Positions 5,902 to 17,071 of a stretch of 39,273 nucleotides of DNA are shown here, one piece after another. This DNA comes from an uncultured bacterium. GTDB lineage: Bacteria > Verrucomicrobiota > Kiritimatiellia > RFP12 > UBA1067. Position 1 is the stretch's first letter. Each line of letters opens with the position of its first letter. The notes beneath the pieces were generated by a model. That model was not told where the DNA came from. It worked only from the letters and a program-made list of their open reading frames with translations, and searched no databases. The DNA is taken from NCBI GenBank assembly GCA_902803135.1, contig CADCPA010000304.1:1-39273 (forward strand), written 5' to 3'. The position numbers and the translations under genes were made by a program.

Positions 5902-7605
5902 TTAGAATCTGAACACGTTGCGATTGAATCCCGTCGTGACGATGTTCATGCGGCCGGCCTGCGTCTCCATCACGGAGGCGACCAGGTAGGTCCGCAACGA
6001 CGAAATTTTCTGATCCGCATCCGTGATGTCGAAGATTTCGCCATCGTCCCGCAGCGTGAGCTGCACGCCGTCGTTGAGGTCGAGCGTGACTTCGCCCAGC
6101 ACGCGCCGCGCGCCGTTGCGGTCCTTGACCGCCATGAACACCTCTTCGGTCATCAACGACGCGCGCATCGCGACGGTCGGCTTGACGCCGGCGGCCTTCA
6201 GCACCTCGCCGACCTGTTCGGACGCCCGGACGATCTCCTCGTCGTTCAGCGCGAGGTCGACCATCGAGATCTTCGCGTCGCGGTCCCGCGGCAGCAGCAG
6301 CGGGAACCGGGCGGCGCCATGGCGGAGGAGGAGGAAGGCCCCGAAAAGGACGAGCGCCGCCACCGGCGCCGCCGCCAGCGCGGCCCACAGTCCATACGCC
6401 CCCCTTCCGCCGCAGAGCAGCACGAGACCCACCGGCACGACGAAACCGTTCAGAACCGTCACCGCGACGGACAGTCCTTCATGGCCGACGAAGACATAGT
6501 AGGAATTGTAGAGGTAGGCAAGCGAATAGGCCACAAGTCCCGCGGCGACGAACCGCACGGCCGCGTGCGCGTCGCCGGCCAGCGCCGGATCGTCGATGCC
6601 CACCAGGCGCACGACGAGGCCGGGGAAGGCCAGCAGCAGCGCCGACAGCGCAGCCCCTTCCAGCAGGGCCAGCTTCGTGCCCATGCGCATCATCAGGCGG
6701 ATGGCCGGATAGTTCCGCTCCCCCGAATAGACGGTGACGATCGGCGCCAGCGCGTTGCCCACGCCGTTGAAGATCTCCAGGAGGCCGATCGTGACGATCA
6801 CCGTCGCCAGCACGGGCAGCATTCCGCTGCCGTAGCGGGAGATGACGAACTTGTTCAGGAAGAAGAAGAGCGCCGCCGAACAGAGGAAGGAACTGGCGTC
6901 GCCAAAGGAGGACGACACGATTCGTCCTGTGTCCTTCAGACTGAAATGGCGCACAAGGGCGAAGGAATTGGCCTTCGAGAGAAAATGCGTCGACAGCACG
7001 CCCGCCGCGACGACGTTGGCGACAATCGTGCCCAGCGCGCACCCCGCAACCCCCAGATCACGGATCGCCAGCAACGACACGGCCAGGTTGACGACGAGCT
7101 GGGCGGCGTAGCTGATGAAGCAGAGGCACGAGTTGCCGTCCGCCATCGCCACGTTCACCAGCAGAATCACACACGGCTCCAGCAGCGCCGAGGGGACGAA
7201 AAACCTCCAGTAGCGCCGCGCATATTCGGCGATTTCGGGCGAGGGGGACATGAACGCCAGGAACGGCTCGCGGAGGAAGATCAGCGCCGTGACGAGCATC
7301 AGACCGACCCCGAGGGCGGTCCACAGCCCCTGCGTGAAAATCTGCCGCGCCCGGTCCGGCGCGCACCGCCCCGATTCGAGCGCGTAGTTGACGCCCATGC
7401 CGACGCCGATCAGGCTGGCGAAGAACGTCACGACGCCCATCACCGACGACAGCAGATTGATGCCGGCCAGGGCCTGTTCGCCCAGCAGATTGCCGGCGAC
7501 CGCCGAGTCGGAAACCCCCATCAGAAACTCGACGACCGTCGCGAAACTCGCCGCGAGGAGGAGTCCCTTGAATTTCTCGATGCCGAAATAGCGTTTCACG
7601 GGCAT
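5902..7605 (-). CDS. MATE-family transporter with C-terminal degenerate HATPase (RsbW-like) domain
   Basis: Residues 1-430 form a polytopic MATE-type exporter: about 12 hydrophobic segments and a pseudo-twofold layout, with the family-like start EFLMGVSDSAVAGNLLGEQA. Residues 445-567 are an extra cytoplasmic domain resembling the anti-sigma HATPase fold (HATPase_c_2): an N-box-like region (TEEVFMAVKDRNG, 486-498), a G1-like RDDGEIFD (519-526) and the terminal strand NIVTTGFNRNVFRF. The N-box Asn is replaced and no glycine-rich G2 box follows, so ATP turnover is doubtful. The ATG at 7603-7605 overlaps the stop of the 85-residue gene (TAATG), implying translational coupling. A STAS protein and a phosphatase/HATPase protein lie upstream in the directon, so the tail may bind the STAS protein (inference). 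Typical MATE proteins are about 450 residues; the extra length is this tail. Confidence 0.88.
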   Translation of the reverse strand: MPVKRYFGIEKFKGLLLAASFATVVEFLMGVSDSAVAGNLLGEQALAGINLLSSVMGVVTFFASLIGVGMGVNYALESGRCAPDRARQIFTQGLWTALGVGLMLVTALIFLREPFLAFMSPSPEIAEYARRYWRFFVPSALLEPCVILLVNVAMADGNSCLCFISYAAQLVVNLAVSLLAIRDLGVAGCALGTIVANVVAAGVLSTHFLSKANSFALVRHFSLKDTGRIVSSSFGDASSFLCSAALFFFLNKFVISRYGSGMLPVLATVIVTIGLLEIFNGVGNALAPIVTVYSGERNYPAIRLMMRMGTKLALLEGAALSALLLAFPGLVVRLVGIDDPALAGDAHAAVRFVAAGLVAYSLAYLYNSYYVFVGHEGLSVAVTVLNGFVVPVGLVLLCGGRGAYGLWAALAAAPVAALVLFGAFLLLRHGAARFPLLLPRDRDAKISMVDLALNDEEIVRASEQVGEVLKAAGVKPTVAMRASLMTEEVFMAVKDRNGARRVLGEVTLDLNDGVQLTLRDDGEIFDITDADQKISSLRTYLVASVMETQAGRMNIVTTGFNRNVFRF

Positions 7606-7862
7606 TAGGCCTGCGGCGTGCGGAGGATGCGCAGAACCTCGCCGATGGCGACGATCAGCTCCCTCGATTCGAATCGATCAATCCAGCCATCCGCCAGAAC
7701 CTTGTCGATCTTTCCCAGCAAATAGGAGAAATCGACGCCGTCGCCATGCTCTTCAAGCCAGCGCTTGAGGATCCGCGCCTCGTCCACATCGACCTTCTCG
7801 TCCTGGAGGATGCCCTTCGTCAGCATCCAGAACTCGCGGCCTTTCTCTTCTCGTGTCAGCAT
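7605..7862 (-). CDS. 85-residue stand-alone acidic two-motif helical protein (shared with neighbouring fusions)
   Basis: This small, predicted all-helical protein has two acidic motifs, QDEKVDVDEA (20-29) and ADGWIDRFES (57-66), each at a helix junction. The same two-motif layout forms the N-terminal extensions of the next three genes upstream (uracil permease, apt, AzgA-type permease), so this looks like the free version of a shared module. The motif (DGxxDxxE) resembles TerB-like domains and the helical region before BRCT domains in some bacterial proteins; these are recollections, not searches. The start ATG at 7860-7862 has an AAGGAG site, and a TTGTCT-17-TAAAAT promoter lies upstream. 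The stop overlaps the MATE start. A regulatory or adaptor role is inferred. Confidence 0.75.
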   Translation of the reverse strand: MLTREEKGREFWMLTKGILQDEKVDVDEARILKRWLEEHGDGVDFSYLLGKIDKVLADGWIDRFESRELIVAIGEVLRILRTPQA

Positions 7863-7945: not shown

Positions 7946-9598
7946 CTAGTCCTTCGGACCACCCCAGCGGTCGGCGTCCTTGATGCCGGGCTCCGTCTCC
8001 GAGAAGGCATAGTCCTTGCCCGGAAGGACCGCATTCAGGACGATGCCCATCAGGGCGCCCACCGCAAGACCGGAGAGCGAGATCGTCGCCGAACCGAGGT
8101 GGAAGGCGATCGCCTTTGCGTTCGAGAAGCTGATGCCGAGCGTGCAGACGATCGACACGGCGCAGATGAGCATGTTGCGCGGTTTCGAGAAGTCCACCTG
8201 GTGCTCGACGAGGTTGCGCACGCCCACGGCGGAGATCATGCCGTAGAGGATGAAGGATACGCCGCCCACGGTCGCCGCCGGGAGGGTCGTGATCACCGCC
8301 GCGAACTTCGGACAGAACGCGAGCAGGATCGCCAGCACCGCCGCGATGCGGATCACGCGCGGATCGTAGACCTTCGAGAGGGACAGCACGCCCGTGTTCT
8401 CGCCGTAGGTCGTATTGGCCGGGGCGCCGAAGACCGCAGCCAGGAACGTCGCGGCGCCGTCGCCGAGCATCGTACGGTGCAGACCCGGATCCGCGAAGAA
8501 ATTACGGTTGACCGTCGAGGAGATGGCGGACACGTCGCCGACGTGCTCCATCAACGTCGCGGCGCAGAGCGGCGTCACGGTCAGGATCGACGAGAGGATA
8601 CGGTCCGCATTGTCGCCTGCGTGGGCGAGGACGGGGAACACCGTCTCGTTCCAATGGAACGGCAGGCCGATCCACGGCGCAGCGCCGATCTTCGAGAAGT
8701 CGACGGCGGCGGACGGTACGCCGCACCAGTTGCCAAGCACGACGGCGGTCAGATACGAGGCGACGACGCCGATGAGGATCGGGATGATCTTCACCATGCC
8801 CTTGCCGAACACGGAGGCGAGTATCACCGCCAGGATGCCGACGAGCGCCACCGGCCAGCACGACGAGGCGCTGTTCACCGCGACCGGCGACAGCACGAGA
8901 CCGATGCCGATGATGATCGGGCCCGTCACGACCGGCGGGAAGAACTTCATCACCGTCTTCACGCCGAAGGCCTTCACGAAGCCCGAGACGACCACATAGA
9001 CCAGCGCGGCCACGCACACGCCCACCGAGGCGTACGCGAGGAGATCGGTCTTCGCCAGCCCTTCCCAGCCCGGCTTGCCCTCCAGGCCCGTGAGCGCGAA
9101 GTAGCCGGCGAGGAACGCGAAGCTCGAACCGAGGAACGCCGGCACGATGCGCTTCGTGAGGAAATGGAAGAGCAGCGTGCCGAGACCGGCGAAGAGCAGC
9201 GTCGCGGAGACGCTCAGGCCCGTCAGCAGCGGCACAAGCACCGTCGCGCCGAACATGGCGAAGAGATGCTGCACGCCGAGCAGGCCCATCTTCGGCAGGC
9301 CGAGCGTGCGGGCGTCGTAGATGGCGCCGGCGTCGGCATACTTCGCCTTGAGCGTCTGGATCGCCGCGGCGATGGCGACGGATTCCTCAGCCGTCACGAC
9401 GCCATCTTCGGCGACGTCGGCAAGGAGATGGGCGAACGCGGCGAGGTCGGGATCCTGGCCCTTGGCCGCGAGCGGCCTGACGAGGCCCAGCAGGGCCTTC
9501 GTCTCGGCAAGGTCGGCCTTGCCGTCGGCGTAGGTGAACTTTTCGGCGGCGCGCAGCAACTGGCCCGCGGCCTGCAGCTCCTGGGAGGAGAGGGACAT
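7946..9598 (-). CDS. uraA: uracil permease (NCS2/UraA type) with N-terminal two-motif extension
   Basis: From about residue 100 the protein is a UraA/PyrP-type uracil:proton symporter of the inner membrane. It has the family landmarks GVQHLFAMFGATVLVPLL (108-125), LGSSFAFLAGY, the EHVGD segment with the Glu that binds uracil in UraA, DPGLHRTM and NTTYGENTGV. Residues 1-95 are not part of the family: they hold ADGKADLAET (24-33) and EDGVVTAEES (64-73), the same two-motif module found in the neighbours. Total length is 550 against about 430 for UraA. The ATG at 9596-9598 has an AGGAG site and lies 14 nt after apt. With upp in the same directon it would supply uracil for salvage to UMP. A xanthine substrate is less likely given the UraA-like motifs. 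Confidence 0.92.
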   Translation of the reverse strand: MSLSSQELQAAGQLLRAAEKFTYADGKADLAETKALLGLVRPLAAKGQDPDLAAFAHLLADVAEDGVVTAEESVAIAAAIQTLKAKYADAGAIYDARTLGLPKMGLLGVQHLFAMFGATVLVPLLTGLSVSATLLFAGLGTLLFHFLTKRIVPAFLGSSFAFLAGYFALTGLEGKPGWEGLAKTDLLAYASVGVCVAALVYVVVSGFVKAFGVKTVMKFFPPVVTGPIIIGIGLVLSPVAVNSASSCWPVALVGILAVILASVFGKGMVKIIPILIGVVASYLTAVVLGNWCGVPSAAVDFSKIGAAPWIGLPFHWNETVFPVLAHAGDNADRILSSILTVTPLCAATLMEHVGDVSAISSTVNRNFFADPGLHRTMLGDGAATFLAAVFGAPANTTYGENTGVLSLSKVYDPRVIRIAAVLAILLAFCPKFAAVITTLPAATVGGVSFILYGMISAVGVRNLVEHQVDFSKPRNMLICAVSIVCTLGISFSNAKAIAFHLGSATISLSGLAVGALMGIVLNAVLPGKDYAFSETEPGIKDADRWGGPKD

Positions 9599-9612
9599 GA
9601 CGTGACTCCTGG

Positions 9613-10464
9613 TTATTTGTCGGGATATTGGATGAGGGAAGAGACGGAATAGGGGGCCAAGACGCCCGTACGGGCCTGGAACCCCGCGAGCTCGATCGGG
9701 AAGAGCATCTTCACGACGCGGCCGCCGAGACGCTCGACGAGACGCGCACAGGCGAGCACCGTGCCGCCCGTCGCGAGCAGGTCGTCGACGATGACCGCCC
9801 TTTCGCCGACGTAGAGCGCGTCCTTGTGCATGTGGAGCGTCGCCGTGCCGTATTCAAGCGCATAGTCCTCGTGGATCGTAGCGCGCGGCAGCTTGCCGGG
9901 CTTGCGCACGGGCACGAAGGCCTTGCCGAAGTGGGCCGCGAGCGCCGCCCCGAAGATGAAGCCGCGCGACTCGGGGGCGACGACCACGTCGAAGTCCACC
10001 TGTTCGAGCTCGCGGACGGACATCTCGAGGCACAGGTTGAATCCTTCGGCGTTGTCGAAGATGCCGGTCACGTCGCGGAAGAGGATGCCGGGCTTCGGGA
10101 AGTCGGGGATCTCGCGCACGTACTCGGCGAGAGACAGCTTGCCGCGGCGGATTTCCGCCAGCAGCGCGAAGATTTCAGCCGATTCCGCGTCCGAAATCTC
10201 GCCATCGGCCCGGGCGGCGACGAGACGCTGCTCGAGGCGGCGGGCCTCCGGGTTGCCCCGGAGGGAATAGGGCTTCACCAGACGCAGCAGCGCGGCCGTC
10301 TTCGGGAGGTCGATCTTGCCGTCGGCGAACAGAGCCTGCTGGCAGAGGTCCGCAAGGCCGAGCATCGCAGCGGTTTCATCCAGATCGACCGTGCCGTCCG
10401 CCAGCACGAAATCCTTCAGGCCCTGCAGAATCTGCAGGAAAGCCTTCTTCTCGCGTGCGTTCAT
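9613..10464 (-). CDS. apt: adenine phosphoribosyltransferase with N-terminal repeated acidic-motif extension
   Basis: Residues from about 110 to 283 are a complete Apt: YVREIPDFPKPGILFRDVTG (115-134) is the family's usual N-terminus, APESRGFIFGAAL is a conserved core motif, and VIVDDLLATGGTV is the PRPP-binding loop. It converts adenine and PRPP to AMP in the cytoplasm. The first 110 residues are extra. They contain three acidic motifs, ADGTVDLDET (22-31), ADGKIDLPKT (47-56) and ADGEISDAES (86-95), that is, one complete module plus a half copy. Apt alone is about 170-180 residues; this is 283. The start ATG at 10462-10464 follows AAGGAAAGGG. It lies 42 nt after the AzgA-type permease gene and 14 nt before uraA. 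Confidence 0.95.
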   Translation of the reverse strand: MNAREKKAFLQILQGLKDFVLADGTVDLDETAAMLGLADLCQQALFADGKIDLPKTAALLRLVKPYSLRGNPEARRLEQRLVAARADGEISDAESAEIFALLAEIRRGKLSLAEYVREIPDFPKPGILFRDVTGIFDNAEGFNLCLEMSVRELEQVDFDVVVAPESRGFIFGAALAAHFGKAFVPVRKPGKLPRATIHEDYALEYGTATLHMHKDALYVGERAVIVDDLLATGGTVLACARLVERLGGRVVKMLFPIELAGFQARTGVLAPYSVSSLIQYPDK

Positions 10465-10506
10465 GACGCTGCCCTTTCCTTCGGGGGTCCGTCGGCTTTC
10501 CCCGGC

Positions 10507-12216
10507 TTACATCAGCGCATACTTCGCCACAAAGAGCGCCGTGAGGACGTACATGATCCAGTGGATGCGTTTGAAGTGGCCGGAAAGCGCGTTGATCGCC
10601 GTATAGGAAATCACGCCGAACATGATGCCGTCGGAGATCGAATAGGCGAACGGCATCGCGACGATCGCGAGGAACGCCGGCACGGCTTCGCCCGCATCGG
10701 AGAAGTCGATGTCCGTGCAGGAGGAGAGCATCATGTAGCCCACGATGATGAGCGCGGGCGCGGTCGCGAACGCGGGGATGGCGAGGAACACGGGCGCGAA
10801 GAGGATTGCAAGGGCGAAGAACGCCGCGGCGACGACGCCCGTGAGGCCGGTCTTGCCGCCGGCCACGACGCCGGAGGCGGATTCGACATAGGTCGTCGTC
10901 GTGGAGGTGCCGAGCATCGCGCCGACGGAGGTCGCGATCGAGTCGGCGCAGAGCGCGCCGGAGATGCGCGGCAGCTTGCCTTCCTTGTCGAGGAAACCGC
11001 CCTTCATCGAGACGCCGATGAGCGTGCCGAGCGTGTCGAAGAGGTCCACGAAGAAGAACGCGAACATGACGACGAAGAAGTCGAGCGACTTCACGAGCGA
11101 CCAGCCCGAACCGGCCACGGCCGCCGCGCCGTCCGCGCCCTTCACGGTGTGCGTCCAGCTCGCGGGGTTGAAGAGCGCGCCGACCGTCTGGCCGAATTCC
11201 CTGAAGTTCTGGGCGATGCCCTCGAACGAGAAGTTCGGGTAGAGCGAGAACGCCTTCGCCGCCGGATCCGGAATGTAGATGCCCGTGCACTGGCAGAGCA
11301 TGCCCGCACACCAGGTCGCGAGGATGCCGACGAGGATGGCGCCCTTCACGCGCTTGACGAGCATGAAGCCCGTCAGCAGCGTCCCGGCGAGCGCAAGAAG
11401 CGCGCTGATGCCGGCCGTGTGGAAGTTCACGTTCTTGAAGGACACAAGGGCCACGAGCGTCGCCTCGTTGTTGACGATGACGCCGGCCGTCTGCAACGCG
11501 ATGAAGCAGATGAACAGGCCGATGCCGGCCGCGACCGCCTTCTTCAGCGAGAACGGAATGGCGTTGAAGATGCCTTCGCGCACGGGCGTCAGCGAGAGCG
11601 CGAGGAACAGGAGACCTTCGACGAACACCGCCAAAAGCGCGAACTGCCAGCTATACCCCATGCCCAGCACGACGCCGTACGTGAGGAACGCGTTGAGGCC
11701 CATGCCCGGCGCGAGCACGAACGGATAGTTCGACATGAAGGCCATGAGCAGCGTGCCGACGACGGCGGCGATCGTCGTCGCGAGGAACACGCCGCCGCGC
11801 GGGATGCCCGCGGTCGACAGGATGTTCGGGTTCACGGCGAGGATGTAGGCCATCGTCATGAACGTCGTGATGCCGGCGACGACTTCCGTCTTGGCCGTGG
11901 TACGGTTGCGCTTGAGCTTGAAGATGCGTCCGAGGAAGCCGGTGTCGGACTCCTCCGTCTTGACCTCGCGCATCAACCACTTCAGGTGGGCGCCCAGGCG
12001 CACCGACTCCTCGTGCGTGATGACCTCGTCCGCAAGCGCGCCTTCCAGCACGAGGGCGAACTCCGCCATCTCCACGTTGTCCTTCGCCCGCGCTTTCGCG
12101 AAGGAAAGCAGAATCTGCGCTTCCGCGCGATCGACCTTCCCGTCCGCAAGGATGTACTTCTCCAACTTCGCGATCGACGCCTTGATGTCTTCCATCTTGA
12201 TGTCTTCCGTAGCCAT
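10507..12216 (-). CDS. AzgA-type purine (adenine/guanine/hypoxanthine) permease with N-terminal two-motif extension
   Basis: The core from about residue 108 is an AzgA/PbuG-family purine:proton symporter: VVAGITTFMTMAYILAVNP (112-130), FVLAPGMGLNAFLTYGV, and DLFDTLGTLIGV near the middle, with about 12-14 membrane segments. Residues 1-90 are foreign to the family and carry ADGKVDRAEA (24-33) and ADEVITHEES (62-71). The first motif is at exactly the same residue numbers as in the uracil permease. A Lys/Arg-rich linker (98-110) joins module and core. The 569-residue length against about 430-450 in the family reflects this addition. The ATG at 12214-12216 has an AAAGGAAC site. It probably imports purines for the apt encoded directly downstream. 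Confidence 0.93.
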   Translation of the reverse strand: MATEDIKMEDIKASIAKLEKYILADGKVDRAEAQILLSFAKARAKDNVEMAEFALVLEGALADEVITHEESVRLGAHLKWLMREVKTEESDTGFLGRIFKLKRNRTTAKTEVVAGITTFMTMAYILAVNPNILSTAGIPRGGVFLATTIAAVVGTLLMAFMSNYPFVLAPGMGLNAFLTYGVVLGMGYSWQFALLAVFVEGLLFLALSLTPVREGIFNAIPFSLKKAVAAGIGLFICFIALQTAGVIVNNEATLVALVSFKNVNFHTAGISALLALAGTLLTGFMLVKRVKGAILVGILATWCAGMLCQCTGIYIPDPAAKAFSLYPNFSFEGIAQNFREFGQTVGALFNPASWTHTVKGADGAAAVAGSGWSLVKSLDFFVVMFAFFFVDLFDTLGTLIGVSMKGGFLDKEGKLPRISGALCADSIATSVGAMLGTSTTTTYVESASGVVAGGKTGLTGVVAAAFFALAILFAPVFLAIPAFATAPALIIVGYMMLSSCTDIDFSDAGEAVPAFLAIVAMPFAYSISDGIMFGVISYTAINALSGHFKRIHWIMYVLTALFVAKYALM

Positions 12217-12308: not shown

Positions 12309-12602
12309 CTAGGCGATTGTCAGAATGCTGCTGAAGCCCGTGATGTCCAGCACTTCCTTCACCGTCGGCTGGAGGCCGACGACGGTCATCGAGCCGCCGC
12401 CCGCCATCATCTTTTTCTGGGCGGACAGCAGACAGCGAAGGCCCGCCGAACTCATGTACGGCACGCCCGAAAGGTCCAGCGTGAGCGTCTCGTTGCCGAC
12501 CAGCTGCAGACCCGCGTCGAGTTCCGGCGCCGTCGTCGTGTCGACACGCCCCGTCACCGCAATCACCAGCTTGCCGTCTTCCGTCTTTTTCGCAATCTCC
12601 AT
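12309..12602 (-). CDS. STAS-domain anti-sigma factor antagonist (RsbV/SpoIIAA-like)
   Basis: The 97-residue product is a single STAS domain. It starts MEIAKKTEDGKLVIAVTGRV and has the loop LDLSGVPYMSSAGLRCLL, whose SSAG contains the Ser expected to be phosphorylated in RsbV/SpoIIAA proteins. In partner switching the unphosphorylated form binds an HATPase kinase domain, and a PP2C/SpoIIE phosphatase reactivates it. Both activities are encoded in the single gene directly upstream. The ATG at 12600-12602 has an AAGGAG site and follows a heptamer repeat tract. No sigma factor gene is visible in the window, so the output could be something else, for example the MATE protein's HATPase-like tail. 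Confidence 0.92.
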   Translation of the reverse strand: MEIAKKTEDGKLVIAVTGRVDTTTAPELDAGLQLVGNETLTLDLSGVPYMSSAGLRCLLSAQKKMMAGGGSMTVVGLQPTVKEVLDITGFSSILTIA

Positions 12603-12617
12603 TCCGAACTCCTTGTT

Positions 12618-12659
12618 AACTCACAACTCTCAACTCACAACTCACAACTCACAACTCTC
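12618..12659. repeat. six tandem heptamers between phosphatase and STAS genes
   Basis: On the plus strand AACTCAC, AACTCTC, AACTCAC, AACTCAC, AACTCAC, AACTCTC follow without interruption; a seventh unit (AACTGCC) runs into the upstream gene's coding end. On the mRNA strand these are GTTGTGA/GTTGAGA units. The stop codon of the phosphatase gene is formed by the first unit, and the last ends just before the STAS gene's AAGGAG. Confidence 0.9.
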
Positions 12660-14712
12660 AACTGCCATAGGTCAGCCCCATCGTCAGCACGTTGCGTCCG
12701 TCCTTGCGGCTGTACATGACCGGCGACATCGTCTTCTTCACGATGAAGATGCCCATGCCGCCGAGGGTGCGGTTCTCGGCGGACAACGTCGTATCCGGAT
12801 CGCGCGCGGCGAGCGGATCGAAGGGCTTGCCGTCGTCCGTCAGCACGAGGCGCACGCTGTCGGGACACGCCGTGAACACGACGCGGAGCGTCCAGCTCGT
12901 CGCCCCCGAATACCGCACGATGTTCGCGAAAATCTCGTCCGCCGCGACCATCAGCTTCATCTGCTGCGCCATCGGCACGGGCTCGAGCGCGGCCTCGAGG
13001 TCGGCCGTCGCCTGGGCGAGGTCTTCCATCGTCGGCCGATACGAATACTCGACGACACGGGAGGAGCCCCGATAGCGGAGGACGAGCTGCGTGCAGTCGT
13101 CCGCCTGTTCAATCTCGCCGGCATGCCGTTTGACCGCCGCCAGCACCTGTTCGAGCACTTCCTTCTGATGGTAGCGCGACGACTTGAGCACGTCGACAAG
13201 ACGCGTCTCGCCGAACAGCTCGCCCGACGGGTCGGGCTGTTCGGTGATGCCGTCCGTATAGAGGTAGATGGCGTCTCCTGCGCCCAGCCGGATGTCCCGG
13301 CTCCGGTAGGGAACGCCCGCCATGGCGCCCAGCACGAGGCCGGGGCTGTCGCGCAGATAGGCGACCTCGTCGCCCCTCCGCACCACCGGCGGGTTGTGGC
13401 CCGCGTTGACATAGGTCACAACGCCGGTATCGAGATTGAGTTCGCCGATCCAGGCCGTGACGAACATGTTCGTCTCGTTGCCCTCGCAGAGCGCGTCGTT
13501 CGTCTCGGTCACGACCTGATGAAGCGGCTTTCCCGTCTGGGCCGTGCCCTTCAGGAGCGTCTTCGCCCGCATCATGAACATCGCGGCGGGAATGCCCTTG
13601 CCGCTGACGTCCGCAATCAGGAAGGCCAGCTTTCGCGGCCCGGTGAAGTAGAAGTCGTAGAAGTCGCCGCCGACGACCTTTGCGGTCTTCATGTCGGCGT
13701 AGATGTCGAACGCCGTCTCGTTCGGGAATGGCGGGAAGACGCCCGGCATCGCGGAGAACTGGATGTCCTGCGCCATCTGCAGCTCCTTCTCCGCGCGTTC
13801 CTGCGCCATCCGCCGTTCGCGCTCGGCCTGCTCGCGCTCCTGCCTCCGCACGAAGCCGGAGATCACGATCGCCACGAAGATCGCCACGAAAGTCAACGCC
13901 ACGGCGTTCAGAATCGCCGTCGAACCCACAAGCACGTTGCGCGTGACGGCGGCGGCGGAACGCGGAATCATCACGTAGACGGGGAAGCCGTCGATGTCGC
14001 GCTTCTGCCAGTAGAAGGAAGGGTCGGGGTCCTTCCAATGCGTACCCTCGCGACCGTTCTCCGCGAGATCGGAGATGACGAGTCCCTCGCGCGTCGTGAT
14101 GACGACGCCGCCCACGCCGGACACATGCCAGTGTGCCGTGATGCCCGTGAGCGACGTGCGCGAGAGGTTGCGCAACGACTCGCCGTCGCAGCCGATTTCC
14201 ACGAAACCGCCCTTCGGACGCCACACGCCCACGTACTTGCGCCAGGATCCGTTGGCGGAGTTCTGCCGGTACGGCTGGCAGTATTCCGTATCGAGGCCGT
14301 CGATGAGCCGCATCATGTCGGCGGCCTGCCCGCCCGCCGCCGCAAAATTGAACGCCGGCTGGCCGTCGTGCGCCAGATACTCCGGCACGGAGGACTTGAC
14401 GATGTCGCCCTTCCCGTCGACCAGGCTGATTTCCGTCACCTGCAGCTCATGGGCGAGCGAAATGAGCGACTCCGTATCCGTCGGATAGCCCTCGTCGAAC
14501 CGCTCGCGCGCCGCCATCGCCTGGCGGACCAGACGGGCGTTGACGCGGGAGACGATGGATTCGGAGACGTCCTGAAAGGCGTTTTCGATCAGCTTGTCGG
14601 CCTCGCGCCGCGCCAGATAGTCCTGCAACAGCCAGGTGACGAACATCGAGGCCGCGAAGGCCAGCAGCACGCTGCCGACCAGCTTGAGACGCAGATTGCC
14701 GACGTCGGTCAT
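12658..14712 (-). CDS. membrane sensor SpoIIE-type phosphatase fused to HATPase (RsbU-RsbW fusion)
   Basis: Domain order in 684 residues: transmembrane helix (8-31); extracytoplasmic sensor region (about 32-255); second helix (258-287); Glu/Arg-rich coiled coil (288-316); PP2C/SpoIIE phosphatase (about 320-548) with metal-site motifs GGDFYD (348-353), DVSGKG (368-373), DG (487-488) and DD (538-539); HATPase_c_2 domain (about 560-684) with N box ADEIFANIV (591-599), G1 DDGKPFD (626-632) and G2 GGMGIFIVKK (651-660). All key residues look intact. It can be predicted both to phosphorylate and to dephosphorylate a STAS partner, which is encoded next. The start ATG overlaps the stop of the solute-binding protein gene (ATGA), tying the sensor to that lipoprotein. 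The ligand is unknown. Confidence 0.92.
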   Translation of the reverse strand: MTDVGNLRLKLVGSVLLAFAASMFVTWLLQDYLARREADKLIENAFQDVSESIVSRVNARLVRQAMAARERFDEGYPTDTESLISLAHELQVTEISLVDGKGDIVKSSVPEYLAHDGQPAFNFAAAGGQAADMMRLIDGLDTEYCQPYRQNSANGSWRKYVGVWRPKGGFVEIGCDGESLRNLSRTSLTGITAHWHVSGVGGVVITTREGLVISDLAENGREGTHWKDPDPSFYWQKRDIDGFPVYVMIPRSAAAVTRNVLVGSTAILNAVALTFVAIFVAIVISGFVRRQEREQAERERRMAQERAEKELQMAQDIQFSAMPGVFPPFPNETAFDIYADMKTAKVVGGDFYDFYFTGPRKLAFLIADVSGKGIPAAMFMMRAKTLLKGTAQTGKPLHQVVTETNDALCEGNETNMFVTAWIGELNLDTGVVTYVNAGHNPPVVRRGDEVAYLRDSPGLVLGAMAGVPYRSRDIRLGAGDAIYLYTDGITEQPDPSGELFGETRLVDVLKSSRYHQKEVLEQVLAAVKRHAGEIEQADDCTQLVLRYRGSSRVVEYSYRPTMEDLAQATADLEAALEPVPMAQQMKLMVAADEIFANIVRYSGATSWTLRVVFTACPDSVRLVLTDDGKPFDPLAARDPDTTLSAENRTLGGMGIFIVKKTMSPVMYSRKDGRNVLTMGLTYGS

Positions 14713-15431
14713 TTCGCCCTCCCCTCGGCAATCACCTTGTTGGCGGCGGCCAGTACGTCGGGACGATGCTTGGAAACCGCCACGCCGTAGTGCTCGCGGG
14801 TTTCAAGCGGCGTCGTGACGAAACGTCCGCCCGACGTCTGCGCACGATGGCGCAGCGGAATCGCGTCGAAGAACACGGCGTCGACCTTGTTGGACGACAG
14901 CGCGTCGACGGCGTCGTTCATGCTGGCGAAGCGGATGGGGTCGCACCCGTGGCGGCAGAGGTAGATGTCCTCGAGCGTGCCGGTCTCGACGCCGATGCGC
15001 TGCGAGGCGAGCTGGGACATGCGCGGCTTCACGCCGTCCGTCCGGTACAGGAAGCACACGCCGCCCGTTTCGTAGGGGTCGGAGAAGAAGACGTCCCTCT
15101 TGCGGGCCTCGGTAATCGTGATGGTCGCAATGCCGAAATCGGCCGTTCCCGCCTTCAGGCGCGGGATGATCGTGTCGAATTCGACGCCCTCGATCTTGAG
15201 CTCGGCGCCCATCGCCGCGGCGATCTTGCGCGCGAGTTCGACGTTCGTGCCGGCGAACGCGCCCGTGCCGTCGAGGTAGGAGCACGGCGGCTCCGTCGGA
15301 TGGGTGAGGAAGACGAGCGGACGCGTCGCGTCCACCTTCGTCGAAACCTCCGGCGCCGCCGGCTCGGACGTCGAATCCGAACAGCCGCCGAGCGCCGCCG
15401 CCAGCACGAAGACCGAAAGGAGCCGTTTCAT
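14709..15431 (-). CDS. family-3 extracellular solute-binding lipoprotein
   Basis: Starting at the ATG at 15429-15431, the 240-residue protein begins MKRLLSVFVLAAALGGCSD, a lipoprotein signal with lipobox LGGC. The rest matches the SBP_bac_3 fold used by polar amino-acid ABC transporters: an LDGTGAFAGTNVELARKIAAA-type ligand lobe, FDTIIPRLKAGTADFGIATI, and TEARKRDVFFSDPY. No ABC permease or ATPase lies nearby. Instead the gene begins 2 nt after upp and overlaps the start of the sensor phosphatase by 4 nt. It may therefore be a ligand-presenting accessory to that sensor instead of a transport component (inference). The alternative is an orphan subunit served by a transporter encoded elsewhere. 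A longer in-frame start upstream would lie within upp and is rejected. Confidence 0.9.
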   Translation of the reverse strand: MKRLLSVFVLAAALGGCSDSTSEPAAPEVSTKVDATRPLVFLTHPTEPPCSYLDGTGAFAGTNVELARKIAAAMGAELKIEGVEFDTIIPRLKAGTADFGIATITITEARKRDVFFSDPYETGGVCFLYRTDGVKPRMSQLASQRIGVETGTLEDIYLCRHGCDPIRFASMNDAVDALSSNKVDAVFFDAIPLRHRAQTSGGRFVTTPLETREHYGVAVSKHRPDVLAAANKVIAEGRAK

Positions 15432-16153: not shown

Positions 16154-17071
16154 TTAGAATTTGACCGTGATGCCGAGACCGCCCCAGGCGAAGTCCTTGT
16201 ACTTGCCGTAGGCCGGGCCGCTCGCGTAGTCGGCCGCATCGCGCATGTCGCCGTCAAGCGTCGTGCAGGACGCCACCTTCGCGAAGAAGCCGAAGTGGTC
16301 GGAGATCTGATAGTCGAAGTCGAGCTCGAGCACCATCGTCGCGAGGCAGGAGTTGATCTTCTCGCCCTCGGGCGTGTAGCCGAAGTTGGGGAAGCACCAG
16401 CCGTAGTTGCGGTTGCGCCACACGAACGTCGCGCTCGGCGTGATCGTGAGGTTCTTCAGGAAGTCCTGGCGGTCGGCGAACGCGAGCGTGCGCTTCACAC
16501 CGAACTGGAGGAGGTTTCCGTCGCTCTCGTGGTACTCGTGCACGACGTTGATGAACGGCGTCAGGTACGGGTTCTGGAGCTCGAAGTAGTGGTTCCAGTC
16601 CATCGTCGTGTGGATCGACCCCCACAGATGGTCATGGCGGCGGTGGGGATAGTAGTACCACACGAACGTCGTGCGGTAGGCAAGCGCCCACTTCTCGTCG
16701 TCGTCAAAGTAGAACTTGTAGTCGAAGTGGAGGTTGGGATCGTACTCGTTGAACGCCTTGCCGAGCGAACTGCGACGCTTGTCGGTGAGATCCGTGTTCG
16801 ACCAGCAGCCGATGCCGAGCGAGAGATTGTCGATGAGATTGACGTTGGCTTCGAGATAGCCCTGCATCGTCGGCTGCGAGTTCACGAGCGAACCGTAGAG
16901 CTGATAGCCGGAATAGATGCCGTAGTTGCCGAAGCCCCACACGATGGGGTCGTCGCTTTCTTCAATCTGGGGCACTTCCTTCTGGGGAGCGGGCGCTTCG
17001 GCCTTTTCGGCCTCCGCCGCAAACACAGTACCAGCCGCGAAGAACGCAGCAGCGATCATCAGCTTTTTCAT
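16154..17071 (-). CDS. putative outer-membrane beta-barrel protein
   Basis: The 305-residue protein has a Sec signal (MKKLMIAAAFFAAGTVFA|AEA), then an acidic Pro/Glu spacer, then alternating polar/aromatic strands rich in Tyr, Trp and Phe to the C-terminus GGLGITVKF. A terminal Phe is typical of outer-membrane barrels. The first strands (YGIYSGYQLYGSLVNSQPT) resemble TorF-type putative porins, by memory only. The ATG at 17069-17071 has AAGGAAA and a TTGAAA-17-TAGAAT promoter. It lies at the head of the nucleobase salvage directon, so an outer-membrane pore for that pathway is possible, but nothing in the sequence fixes a substrate. Confidence 0.75.
   Translation of the reverse strand: MKKLMIAAAFFAAGTVFAAEAEKAEAPAPQKEVPQIEESDDPIVWGFGNYGIYSGYQLYGSLVNSQPTMQGYLEANVNLIDNLSLGIGCWSNTDLTDKRRSSLGKAFNEYDPNLHFDYKFYFDDDEKWALAYRTTFVWYYYPHRRHDHLWGSIHTTMDWNHYFELQNPYLTPFINVVHEYHESDGNLLQFGVKRTLAFADRQDFLKNLTITPSATFVWRNRNYGWCFPNFGYTPEGEKINSCLATMVLELDFDYQISDHFGFFAKVASCTTLDGDMRDAADYASGPAYGKYKDFAWGGLGITVKF

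Follow-up and report, generated by a model that had tools for sequence, protein, structure and literature searches.

The MATE transporter gene studied here lies in a window of 39,273 nucleotides, i.e., the whole stretch of DNA that was analyzed, and its product probably ends in a kinase-dead receptor for a STAS protein, and if so the exporter would be a direct output of the partner switch whose genes share its operon. This reading draws on the predicted fold and motif losses of the C-terminal tail, on the organization of the window operon and on the recurrence of the same genes in related genomes. The sequence-only reading that preceded this work had placed the open reading frame at 5902-7605; these limits proved exact, and the strand is minus (Table 1).

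Table 1. Predicted features of the tailed MATE gene and its operon in the window.
Feature	Position	Strand	Details or basis
MATE exporter with C-terminal pseudo-HATPase tail	5902..7605	-	567 aa, ATG start
MATE core, about residues 1-430	6316..7605	-	Pfam MatE, TIGR00797
Predicted degenerate HATPase_c_2 / RsbW-like tail, residues 445-567	5905..6273	-	Profile-profile comparison, Pfam on orthologues, AlphaFold/Foldseek
N-box EEVFMAV, residues 487-493	6127..6147	-	Column counts
G1 box RDDGEIFD, residues 519-526, intact	6028..6051	-	Column counts
Lost G2 box SSLRTYLVASVM, residues 535-546	5968..6003	-	Kinases have GGxGxxxVKK
TTGFNRN motif, residues 557-563, family-specific	5917..5937	-	NRN invariant, 25/25 tails
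TerB-like protein	7605..7862	-	85 aa; 1-bp overlap with MATE start codon
Two NCS2 nucleobase permeases and apt	7946..12216	-	Same-strand genes between STAS and the MATE side
STAS anti-sigma-antagonist-like protein	12309..12602	-	97 aa; phosphosite motif SSAG
Predicted membrane sensor, SpoIIE + HATPase_c_2	12658..14712	-	Profile matches
SBP_bac_3 solute-binding lipoprotein	14709..15431	-	4-bp overlap with sensor gene

A MATE core with an HATPase-like tail

Residues ~20-420 were assigned to the MATE family by Pfam MatE (1.2e-22), which matched in two stretches corresponding to the two MatE repeats, and TIGR00797 matched residues 21-407 at 5e-26, below its trusted cut-off. Both matches agree with the full MATE core that had been read from the letters alone. 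Twelve long helices were present in a full-length AlphaFold model, itself of low confidence (two sequences; pLDDT 39). Cation-coupled export is the predicted activity of this protein, and its substrate would be of the drug or metabolite kind. The window's genome contains a single copy of the tailed MATE. Since a scan of genome contigs produced one relative only, the family was surveyed by whole-genome searches instead, and homologues were found in 48 of 115 same-family genomes, most of them aligning through the tail to residue ~566. One relative, L001, is a Kiritimatiellae MAG obtained from goat jejunum, and its MATE is 65% identical to that of the window, which suggests a gut member of the Kiritimatiellae as the probable source of the window. 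The open frame in the window, together with 0 internal stops among matched orthologues, ruled out a pseudogene.

As judged from sequence and structural modelling, the protein ends in ~125 residues that form a distant HATPase_c_2 homologue of the RsbW/SpoIIAB type, with its catalytic motifs degenerate. The window MATE protein alone gave no HATPase match in Pfam. Twelve of 25 orthologous tails matched HATPase_c_2 (best 1.4e-4), no other Pfam family recurred among these 25, and two related MATEs passed Pfam's own cut-off for the family (L036 P0007, 4.7e-8; L103, 2.4e-9), with matches at the same C-terminal place as the window tail. When the 25 tails were compared, profile against profile, with 14 kinases from the operons, the alignment was collinear over 107 columns (P = 5.9e-6); a STAS control aligned over 7 columns only. 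Repeated with trimmed alignments, the comparison scored 38.7, the reversed profile scored 16.7, and the best of the column shuffles reached 24.8 (0/100 attained the real score), which rules out chance resemblance of the tail to HATPase. Searches of PDB sequences by the tail profile and by the L103 tail returned no match.

Modelled blind by AlphaFold, the tail gave a structure of moderate quality (pLDDT 59, pTM 0.59) because the only rows in the input alignment were the window and L001 sequences. Its ten best PDB matches by Foldseek were all SpoIIAB, UsfX, RsbW or SiaB chains, with probabilities of 0.96-1.00 and TM scores of 0.54-0.65, the best E value being only 5e-3. Such unanimity from a moderate model would be hard to get by chance. 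The suggestion that residues 445-567 are HATPase-like is thus upheld by the profile comparison, the Pfam matches among orthologues and the structural matches, and prediction of the tail by itself yielded the fold of SpoIIAB, UsfX, RsbW and SiaB, not an unrelated one.

Motifs of the tail and the putative STAS-docking face

Motif columns were counted in the 25 tails and in the 14 genuine kinases of the same operons. The catalytic Glu of the N-box (Glu488 here) was present in 25/25 tails and 14/14 kinases, whereas the Mg-binding Asn of that box occurred in 0/25 tails vs. 14/14 kinases (Ala492 in the window). The G2 glycines were likewise found in 0/25 tails, where an invariant S-L-R stands in place of G-x-G, and in 14/14 kinases. 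Both losses had been noticed in the window protein beforehand, and each holds throughout (25/25 tails vs. 0/14 kinases). In addition, about 10 residues of the ATP lid that separates G1 from G2 are missing from the tails. By motif, then, the tail is predicted to be kinase-dead, and it would also have lost ATP binding. An active kinase in the tail was considered and appears unlikely because the loss of motifs is family-wide.

The G1 box is a different matter, its Asp520 and Gly522 (DxG) being invariant in 25/25 tails and 14/14 kinases. Together with the nucleobase permeases and phosphoribosyltransferases encoded nearby, this would suit a tail that binds adenine, a nucleoside or ADP through the retained box, outside Mg-ATP chemistry, such that purine status gates export. 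We regard such nucleotide sensing as quite unlikely: since the lid is short and the N-box Asn and G2 are lost, the pocket has no phosphate side left, and the strongest genomic linkage is to STAS, also where purine-block genes were not detected nearby (L040, L043, L048).

Mean identity was 0.55 for the tail vs. 0.45 for the core, and the tail was the better conserved part in 24 of 26 orthologues; on this sequence measure, selective constraint is stronger on the tail than on the pump. The tails have also acquired invariant motifs of their own (KDRN-type, SLR and NRN). An ordinary exporter with a relict tail devoid of any regulatory role would account for the lost catalytic motifs, and the function of the tail is itself a proposal only, but conservation above that of the core, the new invariant motifs and recurrence with STAS in many gene arrangements render this reading highly improbable.

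If the tail is a STAS receptor, residues that contact STAS in a true kinase might be expected among those kept. Contacts were mapped on an RsbW sequence whose numbering agreed with all of the published residues. The RsbW residues touching RsbV are Arg23, Asp42, Lys44/Ser48, Glu49 and Tyr118 (PMC7340262). The equivalent of Glu49 was kept in 25/25 tails and that of Tyr118 was Tyr or Phe in 25/25 (Tyr540 in the window), while the position of Ser48 was occupied by Glu in the tails and by Asp in the operon kinases. The equivalent of Arg23 was apparently unconserved, being Ser in the tails, and this counts against STAS docking. So the docking face appears, by residue mapping, to be partly retained and the chemistry lost. 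A mirror-tree analysis revealed no tail-specific co-variation with STAS beyond that of the MATE core (partial r = 0.007). The earlier idea of the exporter as an output of the switch is therefore backed in part, by the HATPase fold, the dead motifs and the operon tie, and not by co-variation of tail and STAS.

The switch operon and its recurrence in relatives

All genes between 17071 and 5496 lie on the MATE strand, and the gaps separating them do not exceed 92 bp. Their order, starting at 17071, is an unannotated gene (16154-17071), upp, the SBP_bac_3 lipoprotein, the SpoIIE/HATPase sensor, STAS, an NCS2 permease, apt, a second NCS2 permease, the TerB-like protein, MATE and a small protein. 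Promoter-like sites, which are consensus matches only, occur ahead of the first operon gene and ahead of the TerB-MATE pair, and this pair recurs with a 4-bp overlap in L001, L039 and L050. At the N-terminus, both NCS2 permeases and apt are extended by an acidic, helical region that is TerB-like (Pfam TerB 0.0024, apt only), and the NCS2/apt block also follows STAS in several relatives. The SBP and sensor genes overlap or abut in at least seven relatives as well (L037, L038, L058, L061, L112, L115 and L127), and the lipoprotein is a candidate periplasmic input of the sensor.

The sensor combines a SpoIIE phosphatase domain (residues 360-547) with an intact HATPase_c_2 kinase domain (residues 561-678), and the SSAG phosphosite motif of STAS was invariant in 18 homologues. 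Positions 12309-14712 thus encode together a STAS protein with a phosphosite, a HATPase kinase and a SpoIIE phosphatase, i.e., a partner-switching module. The single STAS, the single SpoIIE and the single above-cut-off HATPase_c_2 found in the genome (81% complete) are all in the window operon. Since no other such switch was found in the genome and the pump belongs to the same operon as this one, the pump is the probable object of the switch.

Among relatives, the STAS family was present in 43/43 genomes with the MATE tail vs. 33/72 genomes of the same family without the MATE (Fisher 7e-11, relatedness uncorrected). STAS was located <5 kb from the MATE and on the same strand at 31/44 loci; at 12 loci it was 5-83 bp from the matched MATE end, and in L035, L043, L044 and L048 the two genes overlap by 4 bp. 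At least six gene arrangements were seen, those with STAS including MATE-STAS-RsbW, MATE-SBP-SpoIIE/HATPase-STAS, STAS-RsbW-MATE and STAS-RsbW-SpoIIE-x-MATE, and those without it RsbW-MATE and MATE-SpoIIE. A gene for LPG_synthase_C (phosphatidylglycerol lysyltransferase C-terminal) immediately precedes the tailed MATE gene in L032 (6863-7771) and L103 (8307-9158). Among close neighbors of the MATE, STAS recurs most constantly, and it was the only switch gene detected beside it in L041, L060 and L056. At 13/44 loci STAS was on another contig, and in L001/L042, L045, L050, L051, L057 and L059 no STAS was detected within several kb of flank; linkage, although strong, is therefore not found everywhere. 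The tie of the tail to a STAS/kinase/phosphatase switch, as first read from the window, recurs in many genomes.

A tail of this fold could also pair with a true RsbW-type kinase through alpha1 and beta1, recruiting or restraining the kinase at the membrane. RsbW itself dimerizes via these elements (PMC7340262), and RsbW-type kinase genes adjoin the MATE in L040 and L036. However, STAS and not the kinase is the most constant neighbor, no kinase was detected beside the MATE at the three loci where STAS stands as the only switch gene, and the window kinase is already fused to a membrane sensor, leaving heterodimer formation an unlikely role for the tail.

STAS and SpoIIE-HATPase also occur in genomes lacking the tailed MATE (the 33/72 above for STAS), and STAS must therefore have other targets there. 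In L116 (4770-9113), L118 and L119 (whole loci) and L131 (365-3574), the pair is situated amid export-apparatus genes with no tailed MATE, an arrangement that resembles BtrUVW; Bac_export_1 and the FlhB/YscU family were confirmed in L116 and L119. The presence of STAS in MATE-less genomes would also suit a tail that binds STAS as a sink or anchor, leaving the transporter unregulated and tuning another target of the switch by titration at the membrane, and the docking evidence is the same for this as for a receptor. Nevertheless, the operons examined had no other client (sigma factor or second HATPase protein), searches of the genome yielded a single STAS and a single SpoIIE, and titration needs no fusion to an exporter, yet the fusion is kept over ~44 loci. 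We consequently assign titration, the second option of the sequence-only reading, a low probability.

The receptor reading, which we prefer, takes the MATE as an exporter of the inner membrane with its pseudokinase C-terminus in the cytosol. The SBP_bac_3 lipoprotein would probably inform the membrane sensor (12658-14712), whose SpoIIE domain would dephosphorylate STAS~P. Unphosphorylated STAS would then dock on the tail in the way it binds a kinase and, once docked, would escape phosphorylation by the dead tail. Because phosphorylation there would be impossible, STAS would remain on the tail until the true kinase enters into competition for it, and re-phosphorylation by the HATPase domain of the sensor would remove it from the exporter. 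Docking would alter exporter activity, most likely by switching it on, and the exporter would stand where classical switches have their sigma-controlled output. STAS docking, competition by the kinase and the sign of control are all conjectural steps that we infer from the arrangement of domains and genes. For the wider proposal we see about even chances: that the kinase-dead, RsbW-like domain on a MATE pump is a phosphorylation-gated STAS dock controlling efflux post-translationally and with no sigma factor, and that the tail is a receptor module used family-wide, including in related MATEs that bear a GNAT domain.

Distribution, significance and comparison with known systems

Among 388 same-phylum genomes, the close form of the tail was found in the window's family and in one other genome (G339); a weak match in G279 looks like an ordinary sensor kinase region. 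Viral contigs and plasmids contained no MATE-HATPase fusion at the sensitivity used, and the open-access literature yielded no relevant paper on such a fusion. Domain databases may list MATE-HATPase architectures, and the fusion is therefore not presented as categorically new.

MATE-related proteins with other C-terminal additions were also encountered. In L022 (5120-7396), L023-L025 and L028 (3801-6095), a MATE of 758-766 aa has a GNAT-like acetyltransferase domain behind a tail that is itself very degenerate (GNAT 6.8e-4 in L022, just under the Pfam cut-off). In L030 (3655-6036) and L031 (1395-3884), a MATE-related core is joined to a condensation domain like those of non-ribosomal peptide synthetases (Pfam Condensation 2.9e-35 in L030).

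Several STAS-only proteins of non-sigma switches, such as SypA, have targets that are reported as unknown. Here, a probable STAS target can be read from sequence because the MATE ends in a copy of the STAS kinase that is dead by motif, and the switch and MATE genes are grouped in dozens of genomes. If the proposal is true, bacteria gate a multidrug-type exporter directly by a phospho-switch, and pseudo-RsbW fusions to other proteins would offer a route to the missing outputs of partner switches.

The window core is like the NorM, DinF, MepA and FepA MATEs by Pfam and NCBIfam, none of which is known to have a C-terminal HATPase-like domain; none of the matched NCBIfam MATE models reaches into the tail. 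The SpoIIAB/SpoIIAA/SpoIIE and RsbW/RsbV/RsbU-P switches have the same three components as the window operon, and the tail is predicted to share the fold of RsbW and SpoIIAB. In contrast to these switches, no sigma factor was found here, and the additional HATPase-like domain has degenerate catalytic motifs and is part of a MATE exporter. Closer parallels are switches whose STAS output is not a known sigma factor, namely Vibrio SypE, a dual kinase/phosphatase acting on the STAS protein SypA, the target of which is reported as unknown (PMC8256260), and Bordetella BtrUVW, which is involved in type III secretion (review PMC8256260). Unlike in those cases, the candidate target here has a recognizable receptor domain. 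STAS docking on the cytosolic, ATPase-type part of a transporter has a precedent in MlaB, which docks on the transporter ATPase MlaF and binds less well when a phosphomimetic is placed at the STAS site (PMC7367683). However, MlaF is an active ABC ATPase, whereas docking in the window is proposed from sequence and would involve a MATE secondary transporter whose GHKL-type domain is degenerate, served by a dedicated kinase and phosphatase. Finally, the SulP/SLC26 proteins are secondary transporters that are likewise wired to the STAS/anti-sigma world, in their case through a C-terminal STAS tail. They form a mirror image of the present system, in which the transporter bears the kinase-like partner and STAS is free.
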